DNA of 64,000 bases from Branchiostoma floridae. Lineage: Eukaryota > Chordata > Leptocardii > Amphioxiformes > Branchiostomatidae. Shown here one piece after another: positions 41,901 through 63,950 of this stretch. The stretch spans positions 19,607,111-19,671,110 of the forward strand of contig NC_049992.1 in the NCBI RefSeq assembly GCF_000003815.2, written 5' to 3'. Under the pieces are notes generated by a model. That model had not been told where the DNA came from, did no database searches, and saw only the letters and a program-made list of their open reading frames with translations. Position numbers and translations under genes: made by a program. Numbering within the stretch: the stretch's first letter is position 1; each line of letters begins with the position of its first letter.

Positions 41901-44900
41901 AGGTAACGTCACAGTCTTCTCTCATGGTGCAATAATAAGATAAAGCGACAGGCGGCGCTGCTGCACGGCATCATTATCACACCTGCTCAAACATCCGGGT
42001 GGCGTGTTTCCTAAGTCCTGGTAACACCCACAAGCTGTTACCATATATAGATGTCGCCGCGGGGTGAAATTGACGGAAGGGGCGTGGTCTTCCAGACAAC
42101 TCACATATGGTACTCTAAAATGGTCACACACAGGCATGGTGAGCCGTGGTTTGGGGGGAACAGCGTTGTGCGATCGGACGGTTCCCCACCATGGTATAAC
42201 ACAAACACGGAGCCCCTGTTGTTGGGTTAAAAAAGCGACACATACCGACCGCTTTGTAAACTCCATGGTGCCAAACCAACTCGACACTCGCCGGAAATTT
42301 TAGGATAACGTCGATTTCAGTTCCGTGTCTGTTTGCTGCATCTTGGTTCTGGGTTCGAATCCGTCACTCAGTGGGGCTCTTTTCACTGTTAATGTTGCTT
42401 CTTATTGCCTTTACCTTGCTTTAACTGTTTCTATTGTAGAAACTTTTGGTAAAGAATTCATAATATTTGACGATATTTCTTTTTTCATGTTTGTTCACTG
42501 TGAGTTACAATCATGCGTCGAAATGACGATGTTCCAGCTTGGCTTATATAAATATTTCTTAAAAGAAAATTATCATTTCGATAAAAGTTTCCTTTTCAAA
42601 TGTTTCCAAACGTTTTCTTTTCTTGAGCATAAGTGCTATGTTAAAAGTACACAAAAATTGTACTGGCGATACATATATCATTGAACAGTAGTAGTTGGAT
42701 CATTGGGCTGCCTTTCTTTGTAGCTATTTACATTGTAAACGAAGTTGGTAACAATAGTTTGGAAAAATCAAAAGACTGTGTCAATGGATCTTTGTCACAA
42801 TCTCTGATGTGACCAGTTGTGGTCGCTGTCGCGCTAATGTTTAAACTCACGTGACTATGGGTCTATGACGTAGTTTTCTTTGCCATATTAATTGAAAAAG
42901 TTAAACTTGAAATTTACCATTTAAGATTGGATGTGCATATACAACAATTGTTACATACAAATGCGCCATATGAATTCTCTGAAACGACTCCATTCGAATA
43001 TTTTCTATTTTCATACTCTTCAGATCCAGTGTGCGGTGAAGACGCTGACCAAGGAAAGATTCGAGACTGCACAGAGCGAGTTCTTCAAGGAGGCTACGAT
43101 CATGTGTAGCATGGAGCACGACAACATCGTGCGACTGTACGGCATCGTGCTGGACTTGTGTCTAGGATCGCTCATGATGGTAGGGTCAGCAACTTGTCCT
43201 AGCTAGATCTTATTGTTATTGGGTGGGCCGACTACTCACTCTTTGCAGCCAGGGGCCGAATTGCGAGCTTACAATAGGCGGGGCTAAATCGCAAGGGTCT
43301 GGAGCGAGCTGCCATTCGGCACCACCCAGGTGACCTTAATACGACAGTAATTGCCCCAGGTACGGCCAGGGTACTGTAGGTACTGTAGATCTGTGAGATA
43401 ACCTGTAAATATTCTCCCCAATCTCTTCCCCTTTGATGGCATGCTTAACACGTGTTCGAGGAAGCGAAAGTATTTTAGTTTGACGCTACTAAAAGTGACT
43501 CATATCATGTCAAACTAAGAAACGGCAGCAGGCTTATCACAGTATGATACAATGTTTTGCCAATTGTTTTCTTTATCTAATTGTTTTTCGTCTGTCGTTT
43601 TTAAAGTGTTTTTGTAAGAAAATTTGATGAATCTGAATGCGTGGATGGAATTCTATCCATTATTCGTGTCTTAAGCCAGGTGAAAAAAAAAAAATTTCAG
43701 TAATGGTTTTAGCTTGGTGGTGTCCTTAAAAAAAGTTGCATTCACGGAGAGCCTGCGAACGAACCACCCGTATCTGCTTGTAACAGTAATGGATCTCACT
43801 CATGAAAAGCCCGGAAGTGTAGGTTCTCCTCTGGAGTTTAAAGAGAACACAATTAAACAAGTTTTTTTTTCACTCATAATCAGGTGTCGGAGTTGGCTCC
43901 CCTTCGCTCCCTGTCTGACTGTTTGCGGGATTGGAACCAGAGACCGCTGTTCCCTGTGGTCATCCTGTGTGACCTGGTCATCCAGATAGCCAGTGGGATG
44001 GAGTATCTGGACAGCAAAGGGCTCGTCCACCGAGACCTTGCCGCTAGAAATATTCTCGTCTTCTCCCCGACTTTGGTAAGCACATACTTGTAGTGTATTG
44101 TTTTATTAGATTATGTTTTGCATTGTTCATGATAGGAAGTTCTACTGGACAACGTACATTTTTTTTGCATATTTTGCAACTATCAATCTTGTGTGCATGA
44201 TAATGCATAACGTTTGGGACCGCGTGTGTGATAATTCTTCACGTTTGGTACCGCATTGTTGGCAGCGACACCTAGCTGCAATGTGGAATAGTACAAGTCA
44301 GTCTTGCTGTGAGGCAGGTAACAGAGGGTTACCGATACGGAGGCTATTGATTATGCATAGGTCTTGGTTGTGAAAAATAACCTTGAACTCTAGTATGTTC
44401 TTGAAGTTTACACGAACTCTCACTGGCTGACTTTAATGCCCCCCCCCCCCCGTGGCAATTGTAGGGCAGGCCGCTAGGGGCGCGATTTAGTCAGGCTATA
44501 TGTTCTTGCGGTTTTAAAAATTTGTCTGGCTTCTCAACCGACAATAGATGATAAAATGGATAGGTCCAAAGTTTGTCTTATTATCAATGATATTTGATGA
44601 TAATTACCAATTCTTATTACTTGACACAGGTAAAGGTGAGTGATTTTGGCCTGACGAGAGCGCTCGGCGTGGGGAGGACGTACTTCAAGACAGCTACAAC
44701 GGACAGGAAACTGCCGTTCGCATGGTGAGTAACCAACGTTCGTCATCAGAGGGTACAAAAATACATCCCCAAATTTATGCACTTCATACTATTGGCGATG
44801 TAGTTTGCCATACTCCAGGTTTGGTGGTAACTATATCAAATACAATGTTTCACATTAAGAACTAAAGCATTATATGCCGAACGCTCTACCAGTTACGCCA

Positions 44901-47900
44901 CGCCCGACGCCATGTGTTAACGTTCTCGTTGCTTTCTGTTATGTCTTGCCTAAGATGTGCACCAGAAGCGATTAACGTTAACGTTCTCGTTGGTTCCTGT
45001 TGTGTCTTGCCTAAGGTGTGCATCAGAAGCGATTAACGTTAACGTTCTCGTTGGTTCCTGTTGTGTTTTGCCTAAGGTGTGCACCAGAAGCGATTAACGT
45101 TAACGTTCTCGTTGGTTCCTGTTGTGTTTTGCCTAAGGTGTGCACCAGAAGCGATTAACGTTAACGTTCTCGTTGATTCCTGTTATGTCCTGCCTAAGGT
45201 GTGCACCAGAAGCGATTAACGTTAACGTTCTCGTTGGTTCCTGTTGTGTCCTGCCTAAGGTGTGCACCAGAAGCGATTAACGTTAACGTTCTCGTTGGTT
45301 CCTGTTGTGTTTTGCCTAAGGTGTGCACCAGAAGCGATTAACGTTAACGTTCTCGTTGATTCCTGTTATGTCCTGCCTAAGGTGTGCATCAGAAGCGATT
45401 AACGTTAACGTTCTTGTTGGTTCCTGTTGTGTCCTGCCTAAGGTGTGCACCAGAAGCGATTAACGTTAACGTTCTCGTTGATTCCTGTTATGTCCTGCCT
45501 AAGGTGTGCAGCAGAAGCGATTAACGTTAACGTTCTTGTTGATTCCTGTTATGTCCTGCCTAAGGTGTGCATCAGAAGCGATTAACGTTAACGACCTCGT
45601 TGGTTCCTGTTGTGTCCTGCCTAAGGTGTGCACCAGAAGCGATTAACGCTAACGTTCTCGTTGGTTCCTGTTGTGTCCTGCCTAAGGTGTGCACCAGAAG
45701 CGATTAACGTTAACGTTCTCGTTGATTCCTGTTATGTCCTGCCTAAGGTGTGCATCAGAAGCGATTAACGTTAACGTTCTTGTTGATTCCTGTTATGTCC
45801 TGCCTAAGGTGTGCACCAGAAGCGATTAACGTTAACGTTCTCGTTGATTCCTGTTATGTCCTGCCTAAGGTGTGCAGCAGAAGCGATTAACGTTAACGTT
45901 CTTCTTGATTCCTGTTATGTCCTGCCTAAGGTGTGCACCAGAAGCGATTTACGTTAACGTTCTCGTTGATTCCTGTTGTGTTTTGCCTAAGGTGTGCATC
46001 AGAAGCGATTAACGTTAACGTTCTCGTTGGTTCCTGTTGTGTCCTGCCTAAGGTGTGCATCAGAAGCGATTTACGTTAACGTTCTCGTTGATTCCTGTTG
46101 TGTCCTGCCTAAGGTGTGCACCAGAAGCGATTAACGTTAACGTTCTCGTTGGTTCCTGTTGTGTTTTGCCTAAGGTGTGCACCAGAAGCGATTAACGTTA
46201 ACGTTCTCGTTGATTCCTGTTTCTGTCCTGCCTAAGGTGTGCATCAGAAGCGATTAACGCTAACGTTCTCGTTGGTTCCTGTTGTGTCCTGCCTAAGGTG
46301 TGCAGCAGAAGCGATTAACGTTAACGTTCTTGTTGATTCCTGTTGTGTCCTGCCTAAGGTGTGCACCAGAAGCGATTAACGTTAACGTTCTCGTTGGTTC
46401 CTGTTGTGTTTTGCCTAAGGTGTGCACCAGAAGCGATTAACGTTAACGTTCTCGTTGATTCCTGTTATGTCCTGCCTAAGGTGTGCATCAGAAGCGATTA
46501 ACGTTAACGTTCTTGTTGATTACTGTTGTGTCCTGCCTAAGGTGTGCATCAGAAGCGATTAACGTTAACGTTCTCGTTGGTTCCTGTTTCTGTCCTGCCT
46601 AAGGTGTGCATCAGAAGCGATTAACGTTAACGTTCTCGTTGGTTCCTGTTGTGTCCTGCCTAAGGTGTGCATCAGAAGCGATTAACGTTAACGTTCTTGT
46701 TGATTCCTGTTATGTCCTGCCTAAGGTGTGCACCAGAAGCGATTAACGTTAACGTTCTCGTTGATTCCTGTTATGTCCTGCCTAAGGTGTGCATCAGAAG
46801 CGATTAACGTTAACGTTCTCGTTGATTCCTGTTATGTCCTGCCTAAGGTGTGCAGCAGAAGCGATTAACGTTAACGTTCTTGTTGATTCCTGTTATGTCC
46901 TGCCTAAGGTGTCAACAGAAGCGATTAACGTTAACGTTCTCGTTGATTCCTGTTATGTCCTGCCTAAGGTGTGCAGCAGAAGCGATTAACGTTAACGTTC
47001 TTCTTGATTCCTGTTATGTCCTGCCTAAGGTGTGCACCAGAAGCGATTTACGTTAACGTTCTCGTTGATTCCTGTTGTGTTTTGCCTAAGGTGTGCATCA
47101 GAAGCGATTAACGTTAACGTTCTCGTTGGTTCCTGTTGTGTCCTGCCTAAGGTGTGCAGCAGAAGCGATTAACGTTAACGTTCTTGTTGATTCCTGTTGT
47201 GTCCTGCCTAAGGTGTGCACCAGAAGCGATTAACGTTAACGTTCTCGTTGGTTCCTGTTGTGTTCTGCCTAAGGTGTGCACCAGAAGCGATTAACGTTAA
47301 CGTTCTCGTTGATTCCTGTTATGTCCTGCCTAAGGTGTGCATCAGAAGCGATTAACGTTAACGTTCTTGTTGATTACTGTTGTGTCCTGCCTAAGGTGTG
47401 CATCAGAAGCGATTAACGTTAACGTTCTCGTTGGTTCCTGTTTCTGTCCTGCCTAAGGTGTGCATCAGAAGCGATTAACGTTAACGTTCTCGTTGGTTCC
47501 TGTTGTGTCCTGCCTAAGGTGTGCATCAGAAGCGATTAACGTTAACGTTCTTGTTGATTCCTGTTATGTCCTGCCTAAGGTGTGCACCAGAAGCGATTAA
47601 CGTTAACGTTCTCGTTGATTCCTGTTATGTCCTGCCTAAGGTGTGCATCAGAAGCGATTAACGTTAACGTTCTCGTTGATTCCTGTTATGTCCTGCCTAA
47701 GGTGTGCAGCAGAAGCGATTAACGTTAACGTTCTTGTTGATTCCTGTTATGTCCTGCCTAAGGTGTGCACCAGAAGCGATTTACGTTAACGTTCTCGTTG
47801 ATTCCTGTTGTGTTTTGCCTAAGGTGTGCATCAGAAGCGATTAACGTTAACGTTCTCGTTGGTTCCTGTTGTGTCCTGCCTAAGGTGTGCACCAGAAGCG

Positions 47901-50900
47901 ATTTACGTTAACGTTCTCGTTGATTCCTGTTGTGTCCTGCCTAAGGTGTGCACCAGAAGCGATTAACGTTAACGTTCTCGTTGGTTCCTGTTTCTGTCCT
48001 GCCTAAGGTGTGCATCAGAAGCGATTAACGCTAACGTTCTCGTTGGTTCCTGTTGTGTCCTGCCTAAGGTGTGCATCAGAAGCGATTAACGTTAACGTTC
48101 TTGTTGATTCCTGTTGTGTCCTGCCTAAGGTGTGCACCAGAAGCGATTAACGTTAACGTTCTCGTTGGTTCCTGTTGTGTTTTGCCTAAGGTGTGCACCA
48201 GAAGCGATTAACGTTAACGTTCTCGTTGATTCCTGTTATGTCCTGCCTAAGGTGTGCATCAGAAGCGATTAACGTTAACGTTCTCGTTGGTTCCTGTTGT
48301 GTCTTGCCTAAGGTGTGCACCAGAAGCCATTAACGAGTTCGTCTTCACATCAGCCACGGACGTGTGGAGCTTCGCCGTCACCATGTGGGAGATGTTCAGT
48401 TACGGGGAACAGCCGTGGGCCACTTACAGCGGGGAACAGGTACGTGATCTATCAGTAATATATTTAAATCCATTTGCATGCATACTACAGTATACAGCAA
48501 TAGCCGCATTACATCATCCTCCTAACGCCCGGTCCCCAACGGCATTAGCCTATGAGGCCCTGCTATCTAGATGCCTACCAGCGGTTATTATGATTGCCGC
48601 CACAAACCAGCTGTCAACCAATCAGAGAATAAGCTTTTCTTGGTTTTTTTGTTGTCGAAAGCTGTCTCGCAAAGGCCGCTGGGAAGCTATCAGCCAATCA
48701 TGTTACGTCTTACATAGCACCATCCTCCTACGCCCGATCCCCAACGACTGACTGCCCATATAAGGGTAAGCTCATTAATATTCATAAGCAGGGCGACGAG
48801 GAACTGAAAGTAACTGCGGGTAGGCCATGAGAAAGCAGGGCCCCATAGGCTGAGTCAGCTAGCCGTTTGGGACCGTGCGTAGGAGGATGCATTACATTGG
48901 ATGATTTTCGGAGGGGAAGCATGCTAACGTGATAAAATGTGGGCTCTTCAAATCAATGAGGTAAATTTATTTGAAATACAATTTACAATACGAGTTGAAG
49001 CGACGCGTGCATTATAAAATAAATCATAAATCTGCTATACAGAACAGCTCTCAGAGTTTCAATGCACTGGGCTTAAAGGATTGTTCATGCCGATTTCGTC
49101 TGCTGCAACGGGCGATAACTAAAGCCCCGGTCACAAAGCGCGTACGATTCCTTGCGATTCCTTCCGATGCGCAGGATAAGCGCAGTGCGTCGTAAGTCGG
49201 TGGAGAATCGGAAGCAATGGTTTAAGTATATAAAGCCGTGGTCACAACGCGCGTAGTGCATCGTACGATGAGGTCATAAGAGCGTGCCTGCGTCAATCGC
49301 AGTGGATCATAGTAAATCGGGGAGCGTCGTATGGCGAAAAATAGAGCTGAAATGGATTTTGAACATGTTCAAAATTTCGCTATCGTCGTAAGATTTTATT
49401 TGCCCCCATAGCAGAGTTCATTACGGCAATTTTTGTCTACTGATGAGGTTATAGATTTATGATTTTTTAGCATGTTGTGATGGTTTCAGTTTTCCCTGAT
49501 ATTGTCGATATTGACGAAAAGGGGAAATATATCAGTCGCAACTGCCACAGTCGCAACCAGAGAACAGCGCGCCACGCACAGGTGATGCAGACAATTGTTT
49601 GATCGCTTCATGCACGTGAGTTTATAATTAGATCAAATCTCAGCTCTCGTCGGTCTTGGGTCAGTTTACCATAATCGTAATAACCATGGGGACAACTCGA
49701 ACATAAAGGCAGGCTCTATGAGTCGGAAATATATATGATATAATGCTTATCATTTGATTTTTGTATGATGGCATCTTTTTGTTGATAGCATATCATGATC
49801 ATGACGATCTTCGAAAGAGCCTGACACGTAGAGCCTGCAAGCAGGCCGAGATAACCATACCAGTACTCACGCTTGATTTCAACTTTTGCTTGTAATACTC
49901 TTGTTGTCATGGTCTTTTTTAATTTATTTTTACAGTTAAAGATATTATAGGAAGGTATTTAACAGCTATGTCCACATTTTGTTGGTTAAAGAAGCACAAA
50001 AGCGGTCAGACGGCTATACAGAAGAGACACAAGTAAAAAATCTTGCGACGCTGGAAAAATTTTGAACACCATCCGATGCGTTGCGATGGCTTGCGATGCT
50101 TACGATTTTCTTGCGATGTACTGCGCTCATCGTACGATATGCGGAATAGTCCATCGCAAGGAATCGTACGCGCTTTGTGACCGGGGCTTTACGGTATGAC
50201 GTTGTGCTATACTTGCTCTATAAGTTGACATAAAATTACGGAGAGGACAGTCATCATCATTCGGAATGTTTTGAATGGTTCATAATGTTGCCTGGTCTCA
50301 CCCTGAGGACAGAGAAGGCAACTGTTAACTGGACCAGCTTTGTTTGATGAACTCTACAAGCATAGGTTCGGCTTCGACTGTTTTTGACATGAAGAAAGCG
50401 TTTTTGACATAATAGTAGGGTCTATTCCGGAGTCTGTCGGCTAAAAACTCGTCTTATCATGAAAAAAATGGTATAAGACATAAATCCCGGCAAAAACGCC
50501 TAAAATTAAAAAAAAACAGCCTGAGTCGGTCCTCTGCTTGGTTAATACAAAATTCCTTCCAAAGATTATTTTATTTTAATAGCTTGATAGTGTAGCGTTC
50601 GGTTGCAAAAGCATACTTTATTTAGTGTTCTTAAACCAGTCAAGGTGTTTACGGCAAAGTTAATGTCAGCCAACCGAATTAAATTATGGCTCAGCACTCA
50701 GCAGCATCCGTTTGTACTGCAATGGAACTTCACGTTTTAATGATTTTATCTTGCAACTACATTCTGGGAGGCGATAACCCTCACTGTGTACAAGTAGGCA
50801 AATATATCCACGAATGCTTATACCGGTAGAACCAATAGTGAAATGACATGCTAGACCCAATATGTTGACTTATTCAAACCTTTAGATATCCATACATGTC

Positions 50901-53900
50901 TGTTTAGGCCTAAGTCACATTTAATTTCCGAACCGGGGCCCGGTGGGGCTGTTTGAGAAAACGAAAAATAGAAATGTATACGTAAAAATATACACAAATT
51001 ATGCCCACGACTATTCTCTTTACGTCTTGTGTAATTTGGTGACTTTTATATCATACTTTTCGGTCCCGAAAGTTGCCCGGCCGGGCCCCTTTGTGGGAAT
51101 GTGACCTTAGCCTTAGTTGTATTGTAAGTAGTTGTTATACATGTGGACCTTACGAAAGTCGCTGTACTTTTATCGTGTCAATAAATATATCTGTAAATTG
51201 CAGATTCGGCAGGCCATTGGCCCTCCCATGTACCACCGCCTGGAGAGACCCCGGTTCTGCCCCTTCAGCCATTACCGCATCATGCACGAGTGTTGGAGTC
51301 ACAAGCCTAAAGAACGGCCCACCTTCACCAAGCTGTGTCACGTGCTGCAAGAGGTACGCGCTGATTGGTCAATCTATTAACCTCATTAGCATGCTCTATG
51401 AGTATGTCTTGTTGTTACCTGATGACATATCCGAATCCGTGTTTTTTTCCCGTCCAGTTCAATGTTGTTGGCCTACTCTACGAAAGTTGGCTACAATACA
51501 GTAAGACTTACTGAAATAGAATTGATTATCAGCCTGACAGCCAGAGAAAAGAAAACAGGCTCTTACACATACTAATTCTGATGTCCATGACTTTTTTTTC
51601 AAATTTGCAGGCGAAACCAGAGCAAAGAGTCGCCATTGATGACGTCGACGGTGACGTAGTACATAACCTTATGACCTTAAGGCTGGTGACGTCATCACAG
51701 TACTGGAAAAACCCGGTGAATCTTAGAGGCACTTTATGATTTACATATTCCGTATGTTTGACAGNNNNNNNNNNNNNNNNNNNNNNNNNNNNNNNNNNNN
51801 NNNNNNNNNNNNNNNNNNNNNNNNNNNNNNNNNNNNNNNNNNNNNNNNNNNNNNNNNNNNNNNNNNNNNNNNNNNNNNNNNNNNNNNNNNNNNNNNNNNN
51901 NNNNNNNNNNNNNNNNNNNNNNNNNNNNNNNNNNNNNNNNNNNNNNNNNNNNNNNNNNNNNNNNNNNNNNNNNNNNNNNNNNNNNNNNNNNNNNNNNNNN
52001 NNNNNNNNNNNNNNNNNNNNNNNNNNNNNNNNNNNNNNNNNNNNNNNNNNNNNNNNNNNNNNNNNNNNNNNNNNNNNNNNNNNNNNNNNNNNNNNNNNNN
52101 NNNNNNNNNNNNNNNNNNNNNNNNNNNNNNNNNNNNNNNNNNNNNNNNNNNNNNNNNNNNNNNNNNNNNNNNNNNNNNNNNNNNNNNNNNNNNNNNNNNN
52201 NNNNNNNNNNNNNNNNNNNNNNNNNNNNNNNNNNNNNNNNNNNNNNNNNNNNNNNNNNNNNNNNNNNNNNNNNNNNNNNNNNNNNNNNNNNNNNNNNNNN
52301 NNNNNNNNNNNNNNNNNNNNNNNNNNNNNNNNNNNNNNNNNNNNNNNNNNNNNNNNNNNNNNNNNNNNNNNNNNNNNNNNNNNNNNNNNNNNNNNNNNNN
52401 NNNNNNNNNNNNNNNNNNNNNNNNNNNNNNNNNNNNNNNNNNNNNNNNNNNNNNNNNNNNNNNNNNNNNNNNNNNNNNNNNNNNNNNNNNNNNNNNNNNN
52501 NNNNNNNNNNAATATCATACTTTTCGTTCCGATGGCTGCCCGGCCAGGCCCCGGTTTAAAAGGTGACGTAGGCCTATATTACGCTTCTAGCTAGCCGTCC
52601 ATTCGTAAGACCCTTATTTAAGGGGAAACCCCTATTAGCCCCTCTGGTAGGACGTTAAATGGAGGTTCCGTGTTGGAGGAAAGCCACACGTCGAGCACGT
52701 TAAAGATCACATCACACTTACCGAAAAGAGTAGGAGTCCTTCCCTGTGTGAGTGGTTCGAAACCTACAGTCCCATGGCCGCACCCGGGGAAATTACTATC
52801 GCTTTGAGGTCACTGAGTGGCGCCGCATGGCAGCTCGCTTCAGACCCTCGCGATTTAGCCCCGCCTATTGTAAGCCCCTTGCAATTCAGCCCTGGATGCT
52901 ATGAGAGAGTATTCAGCCCACCCAATAACAATAGCCTCTGACAGTAAGAGGTTGTGTAACACAGACTGTGTATCTTTCCTACTCGCAGTGACAACCATGG
53001 CTGGCTCGGCGCGTTAGATGAAGACAAGATCGGCTTCTTTGACCCTGAGATAACGGAACCGTTCCAAACGGAAGCAGAGAAGCAAGAAAAAGCTGCCGCA
53101 GCGATGGACAAGAAAAGAAAACTGAAGAAAAGTACGATTCGACTATACACTCAAAATGTATTTTATTGATTTTTTTTAAGAGCTGTTGTTAGAACTTTAA
53201 TCTAATTTGCAGAATTATATACATAATTATTAATTTGGTGGAACAATAGATTGTAGTTTTCATCGTACAAAAATTAATAACATCATATTTGTCAACACTA
53301 TAGCACCGCAGCCGTCAACAGTACAGAAAGAAGGGAACCATTATGAAACGTAAGCATTTTTTTATTTCCATATATGTCGGTAACCTGTCGTTTCACCACA
53401 CTGTCTGTCAGATACAGTATGTTTCGCTACATGGCGAGTCATTTGGCTACATGGAAACATCGTTTCTCTACGTTTGAATACCTTTTGTCTAATAAGTCTT
53501 ATGGTATAAGAAATCGTTCACTTCATGAATCTACAGATGTTAGACAAATGATAGTTAGTTAAATGTAGCAAAACGACATTTGCCATGTAGCAAAACGATT
53601 TCTGCAGCATAACGTCAACGAAACGACTTCACTTTTACCAAGTAGCGAAAAGACTAAAGCAAACTGACACTGTAGCGAAACGACCGGTTTCCTCATTATC
53701 CCTATGCTTTTGTTTGTTTTGAAGTCTGCATGTCTTTGTAAGAACATGTTAAAGTAAGAGCTATCTGTCTCTGTTGATACATCTCTAAATCACAAAGTCT
53801 ATTGCACAACAGTCGGCCATCTCCTAAGCATGACGGCTTCAGCGCGCTGTCCAAGTTCTAAGTACATGTAAAAGTAAGATCTATCTGTCTCTATGCTGAT

Positions 53901-56900
53901 ACATCTCTAAATCAAAGTCTATTGCACAACAGTCGGCCATCCTCTAAGCATGACGGCTTCAACGCGCTGTCCAAGTTCTAAGTACATGTAAAAGTAAGAT
54001 CTATCTGTCTCTATGCTGATATATCTCTAAATCAAAGTCTATTGCACAACAGTCGGCCATCCTCTAAGCATGACGGCTTCAACGCGCTGTCCAAGTTCTA
54101 AGAACACGTACAAGTAAGAGCTATCTGTCTCTGTTGATACATCTCTAAATCAAAGTCTATTGCACAACAGTCGGCCATCCTCTAAGCATGACGGCTTCAA
54201 CGCGCTGTCCAAGTTCTACATGAGCATGCGCGGGAAGCGGCGGCCGGGTGACGGGCAGTCGGACTCGGGAGGGGGCGCTTCTTCCTCTGCAGAGAGAGAC
54301 CAGTATTGGTAGGTGGCGCTTCCTTTTGTGCGGAGGGAAACACATGCTGTGTGGCGTGGTTATAACCCCGTCACATGTAGCGAAAATCGATCGGACGACG
54401 AGTTTACGAGCTCTAAATTACGAGGAGGCATGACCTGATGCCGACGAGGAAATGGCATACTTCCCCCCTTTCCCGTCAGGGTCATGCCTCCTCGTAATTT
54501 AGGGTCATGCCTCCTCGTCGCCCGATCGATTTTCGCTACATGTACCAGGGGTATAATGACATGACTTTCTGTGCATGCATAAAGTTTTTCACTTGAAGAC
54601 GACTTTTAGGGGATACTTTTTAGTGCATTGTTCCTCAGCTATTTGGCTGAAGATTTAGTCATAGACGGTCATTCTTGACAATTTCAAATAATGAGTTTCA
54701 CCTTTAGCTGCATCTAAAGGTTGCAGAATAACTTTTATCTTTTTGGATGTTTGTTTATGTTTGTTGTGGATGCTACATCAAAAAAAAAGGAAATTATATA
54801 TACAAAAAACTTAACATTCTCGTTGCAGTTCGCTTCAGGAAGATACACTTCAAGAGAAGCCCGGTAAGAAAGTTTATTTTTATGTACCTGTCTCTAAGGT
54901 GTTTATTACTAATATCTCCGCCTGGCGAATTTTGAACAAGCGCATTCTTACTAATATTCCTTTGTTGCAATTTCTTACTAATATATTCCTTTGTTGCAAT
55001 GGTATATTTGTCTGTTTTACTTAAGCCAAAATTACTAATACACAAATACACTCTGTATAAAGGGTTGTTGTGGTGCATATTTAACGAAGCAATTAGGATA
55101 TAGCAAAGATTGATATACTATCACTCAAAGTTATAAGTCATACAGATCTTTGAAAGGACCAAAATGTGTAACATTTTCGTATTTATTTGTAGCACCCTGT
55201 GCATATTGGTACAGTCGCCGGCACATGTAGGTACATGGTTAGCAAACTTTGTTAGAAAGCAGGACAAAATCTGGATTTTTTTTTCATATTATCAGATACG
55301 CCGAAGGAAGAACGCTCGGAGTCCGTAGACAGCCGTGGTGAGCCGAAGACATCGACGGTGAAGTTTGAGTTTCCTCCCGCCCAGCCCGAGTCCGGCGGTG
55401 CGGCGGGCGGAGTGGAGGACAGGCGGCACTATGAGAACCTGAACGGGACAGACTTACCAGGAGAACCGGTATGTCAGACAATTCAGAATTGACATATATT
55501 CTTACGTACCATATTTAAGGTGGTATCTAACTGCACTTGGGGCACCGGTGCGGCAATGCGGGGTTCGAAAAATACTCAACAAATTTCAGAGATAAAGGAC
55601 GAATTTTCGTACGTTTTGTGTATGTTGTTGTCTTCTAAGTTATACTTTTACGTATCACACAATATCTAGATATCGATAATTTAAAAAAAAAATCAGAGAA
55701 AATAACACATCAGCGCCGCAGAAACGAACCCCGCAGTGCCGTACCGGTTTCCCAAGTGCAGTGAGATGTCACCTTTACAAAGAACATTGACAATTATTTT
55801 ACAATCGTTTTACCAAGACGCAAGTGACTGTACCGTATTTAATCAGTGACATGTAGCCTATCTTATCTATCTAGATAATAATTCTAGTGCAAAATCTAGC
55901 CCAGTTGTTGAGTGCCGGTATATGTAACATTTGAAGAAATGACAAACAATACTCTAGTCTAAATATCCTAACTTTTGCAGGACCCGGATGTAGACCACGC
56001 CCTCATGCCGCTCTCGCCCAGACCGGACTATGACGTACCCAGACCCCAGCCTCGTCCTGAGGCAGTCGGAGCTGACGCAGACGGCCAGGAGACGTCAGTT
56101 GATGACGTCACGTACGACGTTCCCTCCCTAAACCCCCGTCCTTCCACCATGTACTTCATGCGCATGCCCGACCTGGGGTGCGAAGGGTTACTAGACGAGG
56201 TCATGTCAAGTTTCTCTACTGAGACACTAGAGAGTCTGGGTGTAGACGAACCGCCCAGAAGTCGTCCAACAAGTCAAACCGTCAAACGGGCGCCTCTTGC
56301 GACAGAGGAAAGTGACTCTCCTATTGTTTCAAGAACTAGGCAAAGAAACGAGTCCGCTCCTTCCGAGTTACATATATCTGAACCAGAGAAGACGAAGGCG
56401 TCATCCTCCAAAGTCTTAGATTTGAAAAGTAAGAAGAACGCCAGCGGTAAGAATGGCGCTCGTAGTAAACTCTTGAACGAGGTACCAAGACAGTCTCCAA
56501 AAGCGACAACTAAGGACCTGAAATTACAGGCATCTAAGAAAAGTACTGGAGTCAGTAAGACTCACTTAAGTAGTCGAACGATCGGTAAGGCGGGTACCGA
56601 TGTGCCTTCAAGACAATCTCCAAAACCTATGTTGGTCTTAAAGGAAGACGAAACTTCTGAGAAGTCAACGAGGGCACCTTCGAGTGAACGGTCACAAACA
56701 AGGGTCAAAACAAGTAACGGGTCTTCTAAACAGGCCTCAAAACCTGTGGGTAAAGCAGAGAAGAAGCCGATGGCAACGTGTCAGTGTGGGAGGAACGGGG
56801 CACGTGCGGCAGGGAAAGGTTCTCCCAGTGAGACAACAAAAGTGACGCGGAAGACGAGCCCCAAGGACGAAAAAGAGGAAGCAAGTAAAAAGTCGCACAG

Positions 56901-57692
56901 TAGGAAAAGTGAGCAGTCGCAGGAGACGGTTGGAGCAAACACCGTGGTGATGAGAAAACTCGGGCGGGAGAACAGGGAACGGAGACCGAGGAGCGGCAGT
57001 GGGGAGGACGGCCTTGTCAAGTTCATGAAGAGAGCTCTACCCGATGAGGTAGGTTTGAAGCATTCTCGCTGTTATAGCTCCGTAAGGTCTTGTGGGGGCA
57101 AAGTAGTAGATTAAAGCCAACTAGTCTAAAATCTATTAAACACACAGTAATATTGTAAATATCTAGACAAAGAACTGTTGGCAAATAAGGGGCTGCAAAT
57201 TTGACTTTAGTGTTGGTTATTAGACCAGAATTCATCAGAACTTCTCACGTGTACACTTGGAACCCTGACTAAGAATCGTGACTTATTGTTTGTGTTTCGT
57301 AAAAATTTACTCTTTGCATGAAGACATAGATTTGTAGCACCACAGGAAGAATAGCTAACAGAAATGTCAAGATAATTGTGGATCGAAATAGATTCAAAGT
57401 CAAAGACTAAATACGTTTGTTTTTATATTATAAAGATTCAAACTTTCCTCACGTTTGTCCGCAGGCTACGCCGGAGATGTGCGCCTTCGCCCTCCAAGCT
57501 ACAAACTGTAACGTGGAGCAGGCGAACAAGTTTGTGAAACTTCAGCTGCGCACGCGCCAGGACTACTCCCAACCTGACGTCAGAGCGCATGCGCTTCGGC
57601 GCCTGAAGCAAAACAACTGGGACATCAACAGGACCGCGCGGGTGCTTCTGGGAGAAGATGAGGACAAGCACTCTGTTGGGAAACTTCAGTAG
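27978..57692 (+). CDS. TNK2: ACK/TNK-family non-receptor tyrosine kinase
   Basis: Sixteen coding exons are visible: 27978-28100, 35262-35393, 37490-37681, 43024-43179, 43884-44075, 44630-44724, 48313-48439, 51204-51353, 51611-51715, 52989-53131, 53304-53349, 54171-54308, 54829-54863, 55296-55468, 55981-57048 and 57465-57692. They give about 1,035 residues, close to the usual ACK1 length. Domain order is N-terminal SAM-like, tyrosine kinase ([33 protein letters not shown]), SH3, a long basic tail with YxxP/YENL motifs, and tandem UBA-like C-terminus. ACK kinases act downstream of receptors and Cdc42 in the cytoplasm, at clathrin and endosomes. I see no clear CRIB motif, as in TNK1. A lancelet gene may be co-orthologous to TNK1 and TNK2, so the symbol denotes the family. 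Phase shows one exon missing in the gap 51765-52510. Two internal acceptors lie in tandem arrays. Confidence 0.93.
28320..28975. repeat. Foldback-like element rich in GCGCGTG / CACGCGCA
   Basis: TTTCTGCGCGTGGAGAATTT near 28350, with repeated TTGCGCGTGA, is mirrored near 28900-28960 by repeated TTTTCACGCGCA. Internal copies of CCCTTGGGAATA and TAATTTGCATATT also recur (28531 and 28872 regions). It is a decayed inverted-repeat element in kinase intron 1. Confidence 0.6.
29856..29960. repeat. TG microsatellite
   Basis: This is a pure (TG)n of about 75 bp with a TTTG-interrupted tail, in kinase intron 1. Confidence 0.98.
30245..30570. mobile_element. MITE-like copies of the CAGCCGGAGC family
   Basis: CGGCCGGAGCCGAATTTTTG at 30263 and CAGCCGGAGCCTAACCTCTG at 30547 match the ends of the better copy at 33306-33505. 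Borders are uncertain. Confidence 0.45.
30985..31065 (-). repeat. tRNA-derived SINE head or tRNA pseudogene
   Basis: The minus strand has an A-box (TGGCGCAGTGGTTA), an anticodon-like arm GCGTT/CTAAACC/AATGC and a perfect T-arm (CCCGGTTCGAATCCGGG), then a T10 run. The D-loop has extra bases, and the 5' and 3' acceptor arms (TTCGCAC, GAGGTAG) do not pair. It is therefore not a functional tRNA. Confidence 0.6.
31730..31931. mobile_element. MITE of the CGCGGT family (copy 2)
   Basis: It begins around GCAGAAACTTTTGCGGTGG and ends AATGCATTTACAGTA, with internal GTTCGGGGGTTTCGCGGTGG. It lies in kinase intron 1. Confidence 0.8.
32080..32744. other. Assembly gap (665 N)
   Basis: This is unsequenced and lies inside kinase intron 1. 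The right edge is a TG-rich simple repeat, which probably caused the gap. Confidence 1.
32745..32910. repeat. TG-rich microsatellite at the gap edge
   Basis: TGTGTG runs with GTGCGTGC and GTTGTG interruptions. Translations are meaningless. Confidence 0.95.
33306..33505. mobile_element. MITE of the CAGCCGGAGC family (best copy)
   Basis: The left end CACTCTCCTACTAAATTTAG leads into TTTCGGCTCCGACTGTTTTT. It is mirrored by AAAAACAGCCGGAGCAAAAC and CTCTGCTTGGAGAGTG on the right. It is about 190 bp and noncoding. A relative is at 50355-50550. Confidence 0.75.
33530..33860 (-). pseudogene. LINE 3' end (minus strand)
   Basis: On the minus strand a frame ends with [20 protein letters not shown], typical of the last residues of non-LTR ORF2. 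A 3' UTR follows, finishing TTTTGTCGTGTCTCAATAAAG. The same 3' end recurs in plus orientation at 50760-51180. No catalytic core is present. Confidence 0.65.
34430..34625 (+). repeat. Dispersed repeat (copy 1 of three)
   Basis: GCGGGACTAAATCGCAAGGG, then TCTGGAGTGAGCTGCCAT and CAATACGACAG, recur at 43215-43395 in the same orientation and at 52745-52940 in reverse. The borders and family are unknown. Confidence 0.75.
34725..34905. mobile_element. Long hairpin (foldback) element, copy 1
   Basis: Arms of about 77 bp (34725-34801 and 34830-34905) are nearly perfect inverted repeats with a loop of about 28 bp. The inner arm GAGCTCTAAATTACAAGGAG, then GCATGACCCTGATGCC, recurs in the hairpin at 54373-54543, whose outer arms differ. 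Confidence 0.85.
35262..35393 (+). CDS. TNK2: Kinase exon 2 (second half of SAM-like domain)
   Basis: The 44 codons run [20 protein letters not shown], then [16 protein letters not shown]. The 'V-x-x-V-x-x-L-x-D-V-x-x-x-D-L-x-x-I-G-L-x-x-P-x-Q-x-x' pattern is the ACK-type SAM end helix. The donor is GTGAGT; phase is 0 on both sides. Confidence 0.92.
35731..35942. mobile_element. MITE of the CGCGGT family (copy 3, nested)
   Basis: It is bounded by TACTGTAAATGCAG and ATGCATTTACAGTA. Internal CCGCGAAATTAAATCC repeats occur. It is the clearest copy of the family and is nested in the 35437-36891 element. Confidence 0.85.
35979..36010. repeat. Perfect 32-bp palindrome
   Basis: It consists of TGTAACAAACGTTACC followed at once by its own reverse complement. 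The half site GGTAACGTTTGTTACA recurs alone near 36159 and 36341. This looks like transposon ends joined head to head. Confidence 0.9.
37490..37681 (+). CDS. TNK2: Kinase exon 3 (linker and glycine-rich loop)
   Basis: It has 64 codons: a polar linker, then [20 protein letters not shown] and [16 protein letters not shown] is the ATP-binding glycine-rich loop, with V of IVYRG at the usual place. The acceptor is CCCACACAG, the donor is GTGGGT, and phase is 0. Confidence 0.95.
37840..38100. repeat. AC-rich microsatellite
   Basis: Interrupted (AC)n begins about 160 bp after kinase exon 3. Confidence 0.95.
38725..39060. repeat. AC/GC alternating repeat with internal 110-bp duplications
   Basis: (AC)n contains repeated ACGCACGTACGTACGCGCGT blocks (38778 and 38867 regions) and (CG)n stretches. 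Alternating purine-pyrimidine of this length is prone to Z-DNA. No coding meaning. Confidence 0.95.
39788..40120 (-). pseudogene. LINE (CR1/L2-like) 3' end
   Basis: The minus-strand frame reads [20 protein letters not shown], then [16 protein letters not shown], before a stop. This is the typical C-terminus of LINE ORF2 ('F-x-Y-x-G-P-x-x-W-N-x-L'). The 3' end runs into ATGAAATGAAATGA repeats, as in CR1-type tails. It is 5'-truncated and sits in kinase intron 3. Confidence 0.75.
40857..41222. mobile_element. Foldback MITE flanked by TTAA
   Basis: The left end AGGCAACCTAAGCAATATTA and the right end AATGCGATATTGCTTAGGTT with GCCT are inverted. TTAA flanks both sides. The long arms pair through most of the element (AGTGGAAAT with ATTTCCACT). 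A TTAA target would suit piggyBac-type transposition but is not proof. Confidence 0.8.
41230..42330. other. Kinase intron 3, nothing recognised
   Basis: No exon or clear repeat border is visible. At 42340-42375 GGTTCTGGGTTCGAATCCG is a B-box-like tRNA relic. Confidence 0.4.
43024..43179 (+). CDS. TNK2: Kinase exon 4 (beta3 lysine, helix C)
   Basis: The 52 codons include [11 protein letters not shown] (beta3 lysine), [20 protein letters not shown] (helix C with the salt-bridge Glu) and [14 protein letters not shown] to the donor GTAGGG. It follows a TTCATACTCTTCAG acceptor. Phase is 0. Confidence 0.95.
43215..43395 (+). repeat. Dispersed repeat (copy 2 of three)
   Basis: It is the same family as 34430-34625 and starts about 35 bp after the exon 4 donor. 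It shares TTGTTATTGGGTGGGC with the inverted copy at 52745-52940. Confidence 0.75.
43884..44075 (+). CDS. TNK2: Kinase exon 5 (hinge and catalytic loop)
   Basis: The 64 codons start [17 protein letters not shown] (hinge; ACK has the same ELAPL) and continue to [15 protein letters not shown], the catalytic loop of non-Src tyrosine kinases with Asp base and Asn. The donor is GTAAGC and phase is 0. Confidence 0.96.
44630..44724 (+). CDS. TNK2: Kinase exon 6 (DFG and activation loop)
   Basis: [20 protein letters not shown], then [12 protein letters not shown] split as TG/G. It has the DFG magnesium motif and one activation-loop Tyr (TYFK) at about the place of the ACK autophosphorylation site. 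The donor is GTGAGT. The exon ends in phase 2, which fixes the true next acceptor. Confidence 0.95.
44875..44915 (-). repeat. tRNA-like A-box fragment next to the array
   Basis: On the minus strand GGCGTGGCGTAACTGGTAGA and GCGTTCGGCA form the 5' half of a tRNA/SINE with an A-box. It abuts the start of the 61-bp array. No B-box follows. Confidence 0.5.
44917..48336 (+). repeat. 61-bp minisatellite repeating a complete 3' splice site and exon head
   Basis: From the first acceptor (AAG ending 44954) to the genuine one (AAG ending 48312) is 3,358 bp. That equals 55 periods of 61 bp plus three net inserted bases (four +1 units with TTTCTGTCC; one -1 unit with GTGTCAACAG near 46911). Each unit has TTAACGTTAAC (two YTNAY branch-point-like sites), a T-rich tract of about 35 bp, TGCCTAAG and then G plus TGTGCACCAGAAGCGATTAA. 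That last block matches the first 23 bases of kinase exon 7 except C to G in GCCATT. The unit also holds the 12-bp palindrome AACGTTAACGTT. Variants (CACC/CATC/CAGC; GGTTCC/GATTCC) form longer-range blocks. Confidence 0.97.
48313..48439 (+). CDS. TNK2: Kinase exon 7 (APE motif, helix F) at the end of the splice-site array
   Basis: One base completes Trp, then [20 protein letters not shown] and [15 protein letters not shown] to donor GTACGT. It includes APE, the DVWSF helix F and the MWEMFSYG helix. Only the last copy of the 61-bp repeat joins to this reading frame. The phase from exon 6 (2) and to exon 8 (0) fits. Confidence 0.95.
48513..48895. mobile_element. Inverted-repeat element with CATCCTCCTA ends
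   Basis: CATCCTCCTAACGCCCGGTC then CCCAACGG and AGGCCCTGC on the left are mirrored by GCAGGGCCCCATAGGCTGAG and GGACCGTGCGTAGGAGGATG on the right. An internal direct copy (CATCCTCCTACGCCCGATCC) is at 48721. No coding frame. Confidence 0.7.
49120..50191. mobile_element. 1.07-kb DNA transposon with perfect 39-bp TIRs
   Basis: The ends 49120-49158 and 50153-50191 are exact inverted repeats starting TAAAGCCCCGGTCACAAAGC. Many internal GTACGATTCC-like and TTGCGATG-like subrepeats occur near both ends. A truncated relative opens the window (1-278). No transposase is encoded. It lies in kinase intron 7. Confidence 0.85.
50355..50550. mobile_element. MITE of the CAGCCGGAGC family (diverged copy)
   Basis: The left GGTTCGGCTTCGACTGTTTT and the right AACAGCCTGAGTCGGTCC with TCTGCTTGG match 33306-33505. 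Confidence 0.6.
50760..51185 (+). pseudogene. LINE 3' end abutting kinase exon 8, interrupted by a MITE
   Basis: It matches the reverse complement of 33530-33750: TGTACAAGTAGGCAAATATA, then ACGAAAGTCGCTGTACTTTT and GTGTCAATAAA. It is interrupted by the MITE at 50907-51112. The LINE tail ends about 20 bp before the acceptor of exon 8, so the pyrimidine/branch region of that exon is at least partly retroelement-derived. Confidence 0.7.
50907..51112. mobile_element. Nested Harbinger-like MITE with TTA duplication
   Basis: The ends GGCCTAAGTCAC and GTGACCTTAGCC are inverted. TTA at 50904-50906 and 51113-51115 is the target duplication. The uninterrupted LINE copy at 33530-33860 (TGTTTAGTTGTAC on its strand) proves the empty site. 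A second partial copy touches the right edge of the gap (52511-52578). Confidence 0.85.
51204..51353 (+). CDS. TNK2: Kinase exon 8 (end of kinase domain)
   Basis: The 50 codons include [36 protein letters not shown] and [12 protein letters not shown]: helices G to I with the invariant Arg in KPKERPTF. The acceptor is CTGTAAATTGCAG, the donor is GTACGC, and phase is 0. Confidence 0.95.
51611..51715 (+). CDS. TNK2: Kinase exon 9 (start of SH3 region)
   Basis: The 35 codons run [20 protein letters not shown], then [15 protein letters not shown]. The YW at the end resembles the SH3 position 'W' of ACK (NYWWRG). The donor is GTGAAT, a modest match; reading on gives a stop within eight codons. It ends in phase 0, which does not match the next visible exon. 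Confidence 0.75.
51765..52510. other. Assembly gap (746 N), probably hiding one kinase exon
   Basis: Exon 9 ends in phase 0, but exon 10 needs two bases before it. An exon of length 3n+2 is expected between them, most likely in this gap. Confidence 0.9.
52511..52578. mobile_element. Right end of a MITE cut by the gap
   Basis: AATATCATACTTTTCGTTCC, then GCCCGGCCAGGCCCC and GTGACGTAGGCCTA match the right half of 50907-51112. Confidence 0.7.
52745..52940 (-). repeat. Dispersed repeat (copy 3, inverted)
   Basis: It is the reverse complement of the family at 34430 and 43215: CCCTCGCGATTTAGCCCCGC, then GCCCACCCAATAACAATAG. It ends about 45 bp before kinase exon 10. Confidence 0.75.
52989..53131 (+). 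CDS. TNK2: Kinase exon 10 (end of SH3, basic linker)
   Basis: T plus 47 codons plus [21 protein letters not shown] is the second half of an SH3 domain (W/G then G-x-F-x-P-like). It is followed by a Lys/Glu/Ala-rich, probably helical stretch ending KKRKLKK. The donor is GTACGA. Confidence 0.85.
53304..53349 (+). CDS. TNK2: Kinase exon 11 (short)
   Basis: The 46-bp exon encodes [14 protein letters not shown]. Of the nearby AGs only ACACTATAG/CA keeps the frame open from exon 10; using ACCGCAG gives a stop. The donor is GTAAGC; it ends in phase 2. Confidence is lower because of its size. Confidence 0.6.
53753..54215 (+). repeat. 118-120 bp tandem repeat carrying an acceptor, exon head and donor
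   Basis: Four acceptor copies (CACAACAG/TCGGCC; first exon base at 53813, 53933, 54053 and 54171) are spaced 120, 120 and 118 bp. The first three are decoys: the exon head (AAGCATGACGGCTTC... CAAGTTC) runs into TAA, followed by a donor-like AAAA/GTAAGA or ACAA/GTAAGA. The last copy is genuine exon 12. Each decoy could therefore be spliced as a small stop-containing exon. Confidence 0.92.
54171..54308 (+). CDS. TNK2: Kinase exon 12 at the end of the second splice-site array
   Basis: T plus 45 codons plus [22 protein letters not shown], then [19 protein letters not shown] and DQY. The start at 54171 is chosen because exon 11 leaves phase 2; the later AG (CTCTAAG/CAT) would break the frame. The donor is GTAGGT. 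Confidence 0.8.
54373..54543. mobile_element. Long hairpin (foldback) element, copy 2
   Basis: The outer arms ACATGTAGCGAAAATCGATC and GATCGATTTTCGCTACATGT are perfect. The inner arm GAGCTCTAAATTACGAGGAG with GCATGACC is shared with 34725-34905. It lies 65 bp after exon 12. Confidence 0.85.
54829..54863 (+). CDS. TNK2: Kinase exon 13 (35-bp microexon)
   Basis: The acceptor TTCTCGTTGCAG and donor GTAAGA are both strong. It encodes [11 protein letters not shown] between split codons (phases 2 to 1). Tiny size but good sites and phase. Confidence 0.7.
55296..55468 (+). CDS. TNK2: Kinase exon 14 (tail with YENL motif)
   Basis: [20 protein letters not shown], then [10 protein letters not shown] and [24 protein letters not shown] is a classic Grb2-SH2-type phosphotyrosine site (YxN). 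The donor is GTATGT and it ends in phase 0. Confidence 0.9.
55981..57048 (+). CDS. TNK2: Kinase exon 15 (long basic tail)
   Basis: The 356 codons begin [20 protein letters not shown]. Two YDVP motifs (DYDVP and TYDVP) suit Crk/Nck-type SH2 domains when phosphorylated. Then follows a Ser/Lys/Thr-rich disordered region with repeated SPK/RQSPK patterns and one short CQCG cysteine pair. It ends [13 protein letters not shown] at donor GTAGGT. ACK family tails are proline-rich; here Lys/Ser dominate. Confidence 0.93.
57465..57692 (+). CDS. TNK2: Kinase exon 16 (tandem UBA-like C-terminus)
   Basis: [30 protein letters not shown], then [20 protein letters not shown] and ARVLLGED before TAG. Two UBA-like three-helix units are seen (C-N-V-E-Q-A and W-D-I-N-R-T), the hallmark of the ACK C-terminus, which binds ubiquitin. 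ATTAAA at 57947 and 57959 are possible poly-A signals. Confidence 0.95.
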   Translation, partial: ATPEMCAFALQATNCNVEQANKFVKLQLRTRQDYSQPDVRAHALRRLKQNNWDINRTARVLLGEDEDKHSVGKLQ

Positions 57693-61008: not shown

Positions 61009-61376
61009 CTACAGCGAGTCATGGTCAGGTTTGCTACCAGATGACAGTGTGCTCAGCTCAAATGTCGGCGATGCCTGTGCAGCCGGAGAAAAAGACGAAC
61101 TCTCATTAACAGCATGCGGACCCTGGTCCTTATGTCCACTGCAGCTGAGCTTCTTCCACCACTTCCTTATGTCCTCCCTCATCACACAGTGGAAGACGAA
61201 GATGAAGAGGCCCTGAAGGGTGTTGAAGATGCAGAACAGATAGGCGAACACAGCGCGTGCGTCGTTGATGACGAAGAAGCCGAACACCCATGTGAGACCA
61301 AACAGAGCCATGATGCTGAAGGCTCGACGGATCTGGCGCGTTATCCGATTATGGTCTGAGTCGCTGAACTTATTAG
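61009..61376 (-). CDS. aGPCR last exon (helices 6-7, tail)
   Basis: The acceptor is TTTTCATGTACAG. It reads NKFSDSDHNRITRQIRRAFS, then FGLTWVFGFFVINDARAVFA, LFCIFNTLQGLFIFVFH and a tail of about 40 residues ending PDHDSL before TAG. The basic stretch before helix 6 is the G-protein contact loop. Confidence 0.95.
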
Positions 61377-61789
61377 CTGTACATGAAAATAAAAATTTAC
61401 TTATACTTTTTACCTCAAGACCTAGGCACAACAATGCCCATCAAGGCCTTTTGTGGGGCCAAATAGACCAATAATGCTGGTGGCTTAATCAATACTGACC
61501 TACACCTCATTAGTCATATATCATCTTACCTATGGCTAAGTTACTAAGTGTCTTGAAGTTGGGTTTCTATTTATATTGGAAGAACATTTGTATTCTTATT
61601 TATATTGGAAGAACATTTGTATTCTTCGTTTGAAGGAATCAACAATGTTCAACTGCCATTTTTTTCTGTTAATGTGTTATGTATATTTTTTCCATGTGCA
61701 ACTTCTGTATCTGCAAACTCTAAATATATATATTTATGGTTTGTGTCCCTGTACGGCGGATTGTGTGTTGCTGTCATGGCATATGTGTG

Positions 61790-61834
<45 letters not shown>

Positions 61835-63950
61835 ACGTGCGTGTGTAACTTCCATGCAGATTCCTGTTTTACAACGTAAGACATTTTCCATATCTACCTC
61901 TTAACTGTTTCTGTCCCTGATCGTTTCTGACCAGTTTGCACATGACGACGATGAAGACCAGCACGTTGAACAGTAGGATGATACCCGCTGGGACCAAGAA
62001 TGCATAGAGCAGAGGCTTGTGTGCCAGCCAGCAGCTGTAAACAAAATGGGAAAATAGAAAAGGTTTAAAGATGCTTTGTTTCCTCCAACTTTCTAAAAGA
62101 CTTGTCCATGATAACATTACAGCATATCAACCAAAGATGTTGTCACAGTCAATGCGATAGTCATGTTTGCCAAAAGGGCCATGTATTCGGTGCCGTATTT
62201 CAGGTTAGCTGTTTTTTTTTAGTTTATTTTTTTAGACCGTATGACTCGAGAAACTGTAATTCTATTTGAAGTCGACTTGGACCTGCTGCTTCGATACCAA
62301 GTCACTAGTGCACTGGCCAGGTAACAGAGGTGGTAACACGTAAATTTTTTTTACCGTATATCAATGACCTCCTCGTCCTAATACCTAACACCTCTTCTCA
62401 TTTGTTCTTTCACAGTTTGAATGTGCAAAAATTGCAATATATTCTTGGAATATCTTGACGATGTCAAGTACGACGTCTCCATATGGCCATGCACAAGATG
62501 CAGAGCAAGAAAAAAGTAAAGAAAAGTGAGCTGTCATCTGCGTCTTTACATATCTAACTTACACTTTCTCCATCCTGTATTGGTAAAAACTTGAGAGCCC
62601 CGCAGCCGACACCGTAGCGACAAGTGGAAAGCCTGGAAAAATAGGTCAAAACATTCCTGTACTTTTGTTCAATCAGCTTTTATCATAGCTTTTTTTTTGA
62701 AGATCGGTTTACAACAAGGCTAGTCTACAAAACAGAATAACGACAGAAAGTCTAAACCGCCCTTCATCTCCATCTCCTTTCTTAATGGTGTCACATGTTT
62801 GTACGGCCAAATTACCTGAATGGTAGGTAAATTGATTTCGGGGAAAGAAAGTTAAGTAAGCAAACAGAGCAAATCCTCACCCCATGCTACAGCCGCAGCC
62901 TTGATGACGAAGTTCCCAGACACGTGATGGTCAAACACAAGCACAACGGCTCGGTATATGTTAACGGCCTCCACTGCCATCCACACCAAGGCAGCCAATA
63001 GGAAGTAGTGTAGCAAAGCTGCAACGACTGTGCAGCCAATGGGAGACGCCGTCCTGTTGATGCCAGCGAGGAAGATGACGAGAATGGCCAACAGAGCCAC
63101 ACAAAGGTTGATGAGGACGAGCCGCTGGTTCTTGGCATGACCTGTTCTTAAACTACGTCTGTAATTTCTGGAATCAAAACACCCAATATTCAATATCTTA
63201 CCGGTAAGAATCATGCATGTGTGTCCATTGCATTCATTATGTGCTGAAATACAATTTAGACACAATGTATACCTTAGAAGGGAATCATCTCTTTAATCAA
63301 GCCGATTTTGTTTCAATCTTTTGAGAATAACAACAACGTGTTGACAGATGTAATGATTTAGTATATAGTTATAATATAGCCTAAACGATTACTCAAATAT
63401 CAAATTACTATGTATGAACATCAACGTCTAATTTGTATAATAAATGAGAAATATTATAAGGAATCCACTGCATTCCATGGTAGGACTCTCACATGTAAAT
63501 GGTGAAATGTCGATAGATATCAATTATGCAAATAAAGGCTTCATTTGCATAATTAATAAGAAAGACAAATACCTAAAAAGTAGTAACTGATTGGAATTTC
63601 ATTCTCAGAGCATTACGAAGGTAAGCCAATGTTGACATCATCAAATCATCAATCATGCAAGTCAGTGTGACAGTCGCATTTACATTGTTTATAAGGAAAA
63701 ACTAAGATTCCCTTCTTTGCCAAAATAAGTATTTCATACTTTGAACAACTTAATATGCTCTTTAGCTGGTGAAGAAGATCAACCAAGACAATTTATGCGA
63801 ATGTATGCCATAAGACAGTATCGTTACATACCGTGTGAGGACAAAAGATAGTAAAGTGAGCACCAGGCAGACGATAGACACGACACAGCCCGCAATAGTG
63901 ATGACCTCTAGCGGCTTCTCATGCTGCCCAAAACCAACACCGAACACATC
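61009..63950 (-). CDS. Adhesion G-protein-coupled receptor, seven-helix region and tail (5' part outside)
   Basis: Five minus-strand exons (63950-63832, 63167-62881, 62632-62563, 62034-61898 and 61376-61009) join in phase to about 326 residues plus TAG. All seven helices are present. Diagnostic class B2 features are HYFLLAALVWMAVEAVNIYR in helix 3, a conserved Cys before it (IGCTV) matched by CWL in loop 2, and FGLTWVFGFFV in helix 6. Helix 7 has LFCIFNTLQGLFIFVFHCVM followed by REDIRKWWKK. The cytoplasmic tail is Ser-rich and ends PDHDSL, possibly a PDZ ligand. The N-terminal adhesion part, GAIN domain and cleavage site lie beyond 64000, so the subfamily cannot be set. Surface receptor signalling is family knowledge. 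It converges on the kinase gene. Confidence 0.93.
61569..61626. repeat. 29-bp direct duplication
   Basis: TTATATTGGAAGAACATTTG followed by TATTCTTAT occurs twice in tandem in the aGPCR intron. Confidence 0.9.
61790..61850. repeat. TG microsatellite
   Basis: This is an almost pure (TG)n about 48 bp before aGPCR exon 61898-62034 in plus coordinates. Confidence 0.97.
61898..62034 (-). CDS. aGPCR exon (loop 2 Cys, helix 5)
   Basis: CWLAHKPLLYAFLVPAGIIL, then LFNVLVFIVVMCKLVRNDQG. CWL is the conserved extracellular-loop cysteine and the following helix has the P-A-G...N pattern of aGPCR helix 5. The acceptor is TTGTTTACAG and the donor GTAGAT. Confidence 0.93.
62563..62632 (-). CDS. aGPCR exon (helix 4)
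   Basis: The 70-bp exon reads FPLVATVSAAGLSSFYQYRM, with Gly-Phe-Pro at the split codon, as in aGPCR helix 4 (W-G-x-P). The donor GTAAGT is strong; phases 1 to 2 match its neighbours. Confidence 0.9.
62881..63167 (-). CDS. aGPCR exon (helices 2-3)
   Basis: NYRRSLRTGHAKNQRLVLIN, LCVALLAILVIFLAGINRTA, then GCTVVAALLHYFLLAALVWM and AVEAVNIYRAVVLVF. The L-x-x-N-L-x-x-A-L-L helix 2 and HYF helix 3 are typical. The donor is GTGAGG. Confidence 0.95.
63832..63950 (-). CDS. aGPCR exon (helix 1), first exon inside the window
   Basis: DVFGVGFGQHEKPLEVITIA, then GCVVSIVCLVLTLLSFVLTR: stalk end and helix 1. The acceptor is TTACGTTTCCAG, so coding continues upstream of the window edge. Confidence 0.92.

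Follow-up and report, generated by a model that had tools for sequence, protein, structure and literature searches.

Boundary-spanning repeats in amphioxus genes

Tandem repeats lying across the exon-intron boundaries of amphioxus genes have been described as "mirages", with cases in Adh3, the globins BflGb6 and BflGb9, PGBD5, and troponin C, and the accessible text of the two reports holds that normal splicing is undisturbed by them (PMC3087553, PMC3902484). In lancelet PGBD5, repeats of 60 and 108 bp lie over splice sites, and the same excerpted account cites Adh and troponin C (PMC3902484). The edges of the globin repeat clusters are described, in the part of the source available, as excluded from homogenisation, and mirage repeats are proposed there to become real exon-intron borders and thus a source of new introns (PMC3087553). 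One PGBD5 gene model, as presented in the accessible portion of its report, counts the repeats as exon (PMC3902484). Taken together, the proposed new borders and this gene model imply that mirages need not be silent. Two other systems bear comparison: an intron-gain model based on tandem duplication over an AG/GT proto-splice site, as cited in the available text of PMC3087553, and a human intronic VNTR in ABCA7, whose length correlates with exon skipping and expression according to the excerpted report (PMC5954066).

Here we describe an array of 56 units in an intron of a lancelet kinase gene that, judged from its sequence, looks like an unusually long mirage and is of a kind already described in lancelets. 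Its unit spans a boundary, the splice signal is kept in all 56 units, and its interior is homogenised. The amphioxus mirages share these features as far as their published descriptions could be consulted, being boundary-spanning tandem repeats with the AG or GT kept in many units, a homogenised interior, and distinct edges. As in the kinase gene, it is the 3' intron end and the 5' part of the exon that are duplicated in BflGb6, according to the text available (PMC3087553). The same text gives 6 and 3 units in two BflGb6 haplotypes, against 56 here. The unit of 61 bp compares with 150-160 bp in BflGb6, 157 bp in BflGb9, and 10-72 bp in Adh3, again from the accessible portions of the sources. 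The duplicated sequence holds AG|GT, as the intron-gain model has it in the citing text, but the kinase copies lie within one existing intron and no new intron is shown (cited in PMC3087553). The ABCA7 VNTR is likewise a tandem repeat within an intron. Its length is associated with a change in splicing; that change is exon skipping, however, and the available text mentions neither exon-boundary copies nor decoy acceptors (PMC5954066). The kinase array itself was not found in the literature searched, a search that had most subscription papers outside its reach.

The kinase gene and its interrupted intron

The window, that is, the whole stretch of 64,000 nucleotides analysed, carries on its + strand two kinase exons that flank the array. 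The upstream exon (44630..44724; VKVSDFGL...KLPFA plus TG) was placed from its sequence, its translation, and the PF07714 match of the joined piece, and ends in ...TTCGCATG at 44724, followed by GTGAGT (donor ATG|GTGAGT). The downstream exon (48313..48439; 127 nt, ending ...SGEQ), placed by sequence, translation, and Pfam, begins with GTGTGCACC at 48313 and has GTACGT after 48439 (donor CAG|GTACGT). Joining 44724 to 48313 in phase 2 completes a Trp codon (TG|G) and keeps the kinase frame open. The joined exons match PF07714 at 1.6e-23, and 42925-43203 matches the same family at 2.2e-9. At the start of the upstream exon, CAG|GTAAAGGTGAGT (window 44628-44645) contains a donor-like AAG|GTGAGT with a rough score of 8.19, above those of the real donors.

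A SAM_TNK match (PF22931; 35157-35531, 2.2e-8) lies before the kinase and a UBA-like match (PF14555; 57411-57689, 7.4e-5) after it, both on the kinase's strand, an arrangement that points to a kinase of the TNK/ACK type. From their order and strand, we infer that the SAM_TNK, kinase, and UBA-like exons belong to one transcript. The frame at 55972-57111 had no Pfam match. A protein search recovered four related proteins, from contigs no longer than 1335 bases. All four continue through the W|C position uninterrupted by an intron, and one of them, P0004, shares the exon start and the exon end of the joined exons. The intron is thus not universal, and these relatives say no more than that. On the sequences compared, the intron between 44724 and 48313, in the Trp codon before CAPE, may have been gained or lost in some lineages.

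Anatomy of the array

Tandem Repeats Finder (TRF) reported the array at 44916-48335 with a period of 61, 56.0 copies, 94% matches, and a score of 5866. When 44917-48335 was cut at the acceptors, it resolved into 56 head-to-tail units, 51 of them 61 bp long, four 62 bp, and one 60 bp. The original prediction of a 61-bp unit repeated for exactly 55 periods before the real site was therefore right in count and wrong in supposing a uniform length. In each unit, the last 38-39 bp of the intron (TTAACG, a pyrimidine-rich tract, and TGCCTAAG) run into the opening 22-23 bp of the kinase exon, including its APE motif. The heptamer GCCTAAG is kept in 56/56 units, and the base that follows it runs from 44955 in the first unit to 48313 in the last at spacings of 60, 61, or 62, which confirms the predicted 55 decoys and one real acceptor. 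An AG stands directly before GT in 55 of the 56 units. TTAACG occurs at both unit ends, and so appears singly at each outer edge of the array and as a tandem pair between units.

The array occupies most of an intron of 3588 nt, which would shrink to 230 nt if the 55 extra units were removed. Its unique 5' part (192 nt, 44725..44916, + strand), delimited by unit lengths and a BLAST comparison against the window, has no second copy within the window. The 55 decoy units follow at 44917..48274 (+ strand; TRF and unit table), each comprising a 3' intron end and the first 22-23 bp of exon. Unit 1 (44917..44977, + strand; unit listing and joins) is among the more divergent units. Unit 56 (48275..48335, + strand) comprises the real 3' splice site and the 23 bp that open the real exon. 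This acceptor is not a strong one, having A at -3 and a G that interrupts the pyrimidine tract. The printed sequence of the array is free of any N. Directly upstream of the array, on the - strand, 44840-44911 resembles the head of a tRNA-derived SINE (GGCGTCGGGCGTGGCGTAACTGGTAGAGCG); it is single-copy in the window by BLAST, and ARAGORN found no tRNA gene.

Variation and turnover among the units

Among the 56 units there are 29 distinct types, which follow one another without periodicity. Blocks of units are nevertheless exactly equal: units 26-32 equal 40-46, 16-18 equal 34-36, and 24-26 equal 53-55. The first of these pairs belongs to a long internal duplication spanning approximately 46412..47830 (+ strand; unit table and repeat test), and within the array a stretch of 500 bp or more, but less than 550 bp, recurs exactly at an offset of 854 bp, or 14 units. 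Such block duplications, together with the long exact repeat, are marks of turnover inside the array. Homogenisation affects the interior and leaves out the edge units, in that units 1 and 56 carry private differences. Among the private changes of unit 1 is AAG|A where the other units have AAG|G, and exon base 16 separates the whole set of 55 decoys from the real exon (GCG vs GCC, both Ala).

Coding sequence is not conserved in the decoys, because the opening base of the Pro codon in the APE motif, exon base 8, has been free to change (22 of the 55 decoys have T and 7 have G). The Pro codon is substituted in 29/55 decoys and disrupted in one more by a 1-bp deletion. The earlier description of the unit as the exon's acceptor plus codons for Cys-Ala-Pro-Glu-Ala-Ile-Asn thus holds for the acceptor, and for the Pro codon in only 25 of 55 decoys. 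The splice signals have not decayed, with the AG intact in 55/55 decoys. Special conservation of the splice core in the decoys was nonetheless rejected: 16 of 62 columns are variable, the longest invariant run is 8 columns, and this clustering is no more than expected by chance (p 0.87). We also rejected founding by simple recombination between the TTAACG copies at the unit ends, which predicts a 55-bp unit with one TTAACG. Since the units are 61 bp long with two tandem TTAACG, the founding event kept both ends.

Selection of the real acceptor

Using rough acceptor and donor matrices, built on approximate frequencies, we scored the real acceptor at 5.88 and the decoys at 4.09-7.04, with 15/55 decoys scoring at least as high as the real site. 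On the same rough matrix, the real acceptor stands at the 92nd percentile of 3584 + strand AGs. In local RNA folding, 26/55 decoys were at least as open as the real site at the AAG, 44/55 at six bases of the tract, and 21/55 at the branch site. Stretches of two units folded better than shuffled sequence (z -2.18, -2.28, and -3.73). Local signals were therefore rejected as the chooser, given the 15 decoys that equal or exceed the real score and the ordinary accessibility of the real site. As the real site bears no local mark, the choice has to come from context.

In exon definition, an exon is recognised as a short unit together with its own donor. Measured to the end of the real exon, the decoys would give exons of 188, 249, 310, 371 ... 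3485 nt, against 127 nt for the real one. Under exon definition, the donor at 48439 would pair poorly with most decoys, and the real acceptor would compete mainly with the last few. The claim that the splicing machinery must choose among 56 near-identical acceptors treats them as equals, yet judged by exon length only the last few decoys would give an exon of ordinary size (188, 249, and 310 nt). Exon length alone, however, fails to explain a perfect choice, because the two or three nearest decoys yield normal-sized exons and 15/55 decoys score no lower than the real site. Intron definition would favour unit 1, since it lies 230 nt from the upstream donor, the length of the intron without the extra units.

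When the upstream exon was joined to the decoys one by one and translated as far as the end of the real exon, all 55 joins ran into a stop, after 0-49 residues; the join to unit 1 stops immediately (TG|A). The prediction that the last copy alone leads on into the kinase frame is thus borne out. If a decoy were occasionally used, the transcript would meet a premature stop and would probably decay.

Evaluation of possible explanations

We consider it likely that the array is a neutral, homogenising mirage minisatellite that is passed over through exon definition. A tandem duplication of the exon-intron boundary would have founded the minisatellite, and unequal exchange or slippage would have expanded it to 56 units. 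The real exon would be recognised with its own donor at 48439, so that normal splicing would join 44724 to the last acceptor and the decoys would be removed as intron. The array would then be tolerated without a selected function, and the splicing machinery, on this analysis, probably ignores it. The proposal that the array serves as a decoy sink, tunes splicing, or yields truncated proteins is not supported; the published amphioxus mirages are said, in the text available, to spare regular splicing (PMC3087553, PMC3902484).

The array could instead be a length-tunable rheostat, in which decoys capture a share of splicing, the resulting transcripts stop early and decay, and copy number sets the amount of active kinase. 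The intact GCCTAAG in every unit, the 15 decoys that equal or outscore the real site, and the stop in every decoy join would all suit such a device, as would the human ABCA7 VNTR, whose length correlates with exon skipping and expression in the portion of the report consulted (PMC5954066). We regard it as unlikely, given that the splice core is not conserved in excess of the other columns, that homogenisation alone would leave intact AGs in any such intronic array, and that amphioxus mirages are reported, in the accessible accounts, without interference in regular splicing (PMC3087553, PMC3902484). A heritable, length-variable splicing brake, in which equally good decoys divert transcripts to early stops and copy number, including its somatic change, tunes the kinase dose, seems to us slightly less probable still. 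Just as improbable, in our estimate, is an assembly artefact in which a true locus of one or a few units was inflated by the assembler. The assembly is not gapless, as N runs occur elsewhere in the window, and the array contains an exact repeat of 500 bp or more. According to the excerpted reports, moreover, the draft assembly of the BflGb6 mirage was aberrant (PMC3087553) and PGBD5 repeat counts differ between assemblies (PMC3902484). The 29 unit types, their non-periodic order, and the four 62-bp units and one 60-bp unit are, on the other hand, unlike the repeated insertion of one read, and the printed array holds no N. The copy number of the array may still be off in the assembly.

Two readings concern how the intron itself might behave, and we give either very little credence. 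The AG directly before GT in 55 of the 56 units would allow recursive splicing, with each AAG|GTGTGC serving as acceptor and then donor and the intron removed stepwise. This AG|GT follows, however, from the bases with which the exon itself begins (TG|G TGT GCA), and on the rough matrix AAG|GTGTGC reaches a donor-like score of only 3.69, where the flanking donors have 6.09 and 5.54; this is not the score of a strong donor, and we disfavoured recursive splicing on this difference (3.69 vs 5.54-6.09). Folding of neighbouring units could also hide the decoys and leave only the last acceptor open, and the two-unit stretches do fold better than shuffles. One of these three stretches, however, contains the real site, which is no more open than the decoys at the AAG, the tract, or the branch site.

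A second array and other features of the window

Besides the kinase array, the window holds a second boundary array on the + strand (53739..54218; TRF period 120 bp, unit listing), with four 118-120-bp units over a predicted acceptor. Its units carry CAACAG|TCGG at 53813, 53933, 54053, and 54171, and cover the predicted acceptor and the first ~48 bases of the predicted exon. This predicted exon of 138 bp (54171..54308, + strand) follows the last unit in one open frame and ends at a donor-like GTAGGT. Only after the last acceptor of the array does the open frame continue to GTAGGT. The predicted acceptor at 54171 scores only 1.02 on the rough matrix.

On the - strand, 2542-3036 contains an 85-bp unit repeated 5.8 times, some copies of which have a protein-like frame (MYAPPGWEIRHKYKYKDDR), with a donor-like GGGTAACATG at the edge of the repeat. 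It may be another boundary array. The - strand at 2858-3187 gave no Pfam match. Exons of a secretin-family seven-transmembrane receptor lie on the - strand at 61012-61440 and 62855-63292 (PF00002, 1.1e-9 and 4.2e-14).

Implications

With its dozens of nearly identical acceptors, the kinase array is a natural experiment in how the spliceosome settles on one of them. Use of the decoys and of the real site can be separated in ordinary RNA reads, because every decoy (55/55) has G at exon base 16 where the real exon has C, and because from exon base 24 the real exon continues as AGTTCG while the decoys re-enter the repeat. The locus also shows that the gene's reading frame can survive the growth of a boundary duplication to 56 units, and that one strand can carry two boundary arrays within 10 kb. 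Overall, the kinase array is remarkable in size, yet of a described class; it is most likely a tolerated neutral minisatellite, with a splicing brake as a possible alternative.
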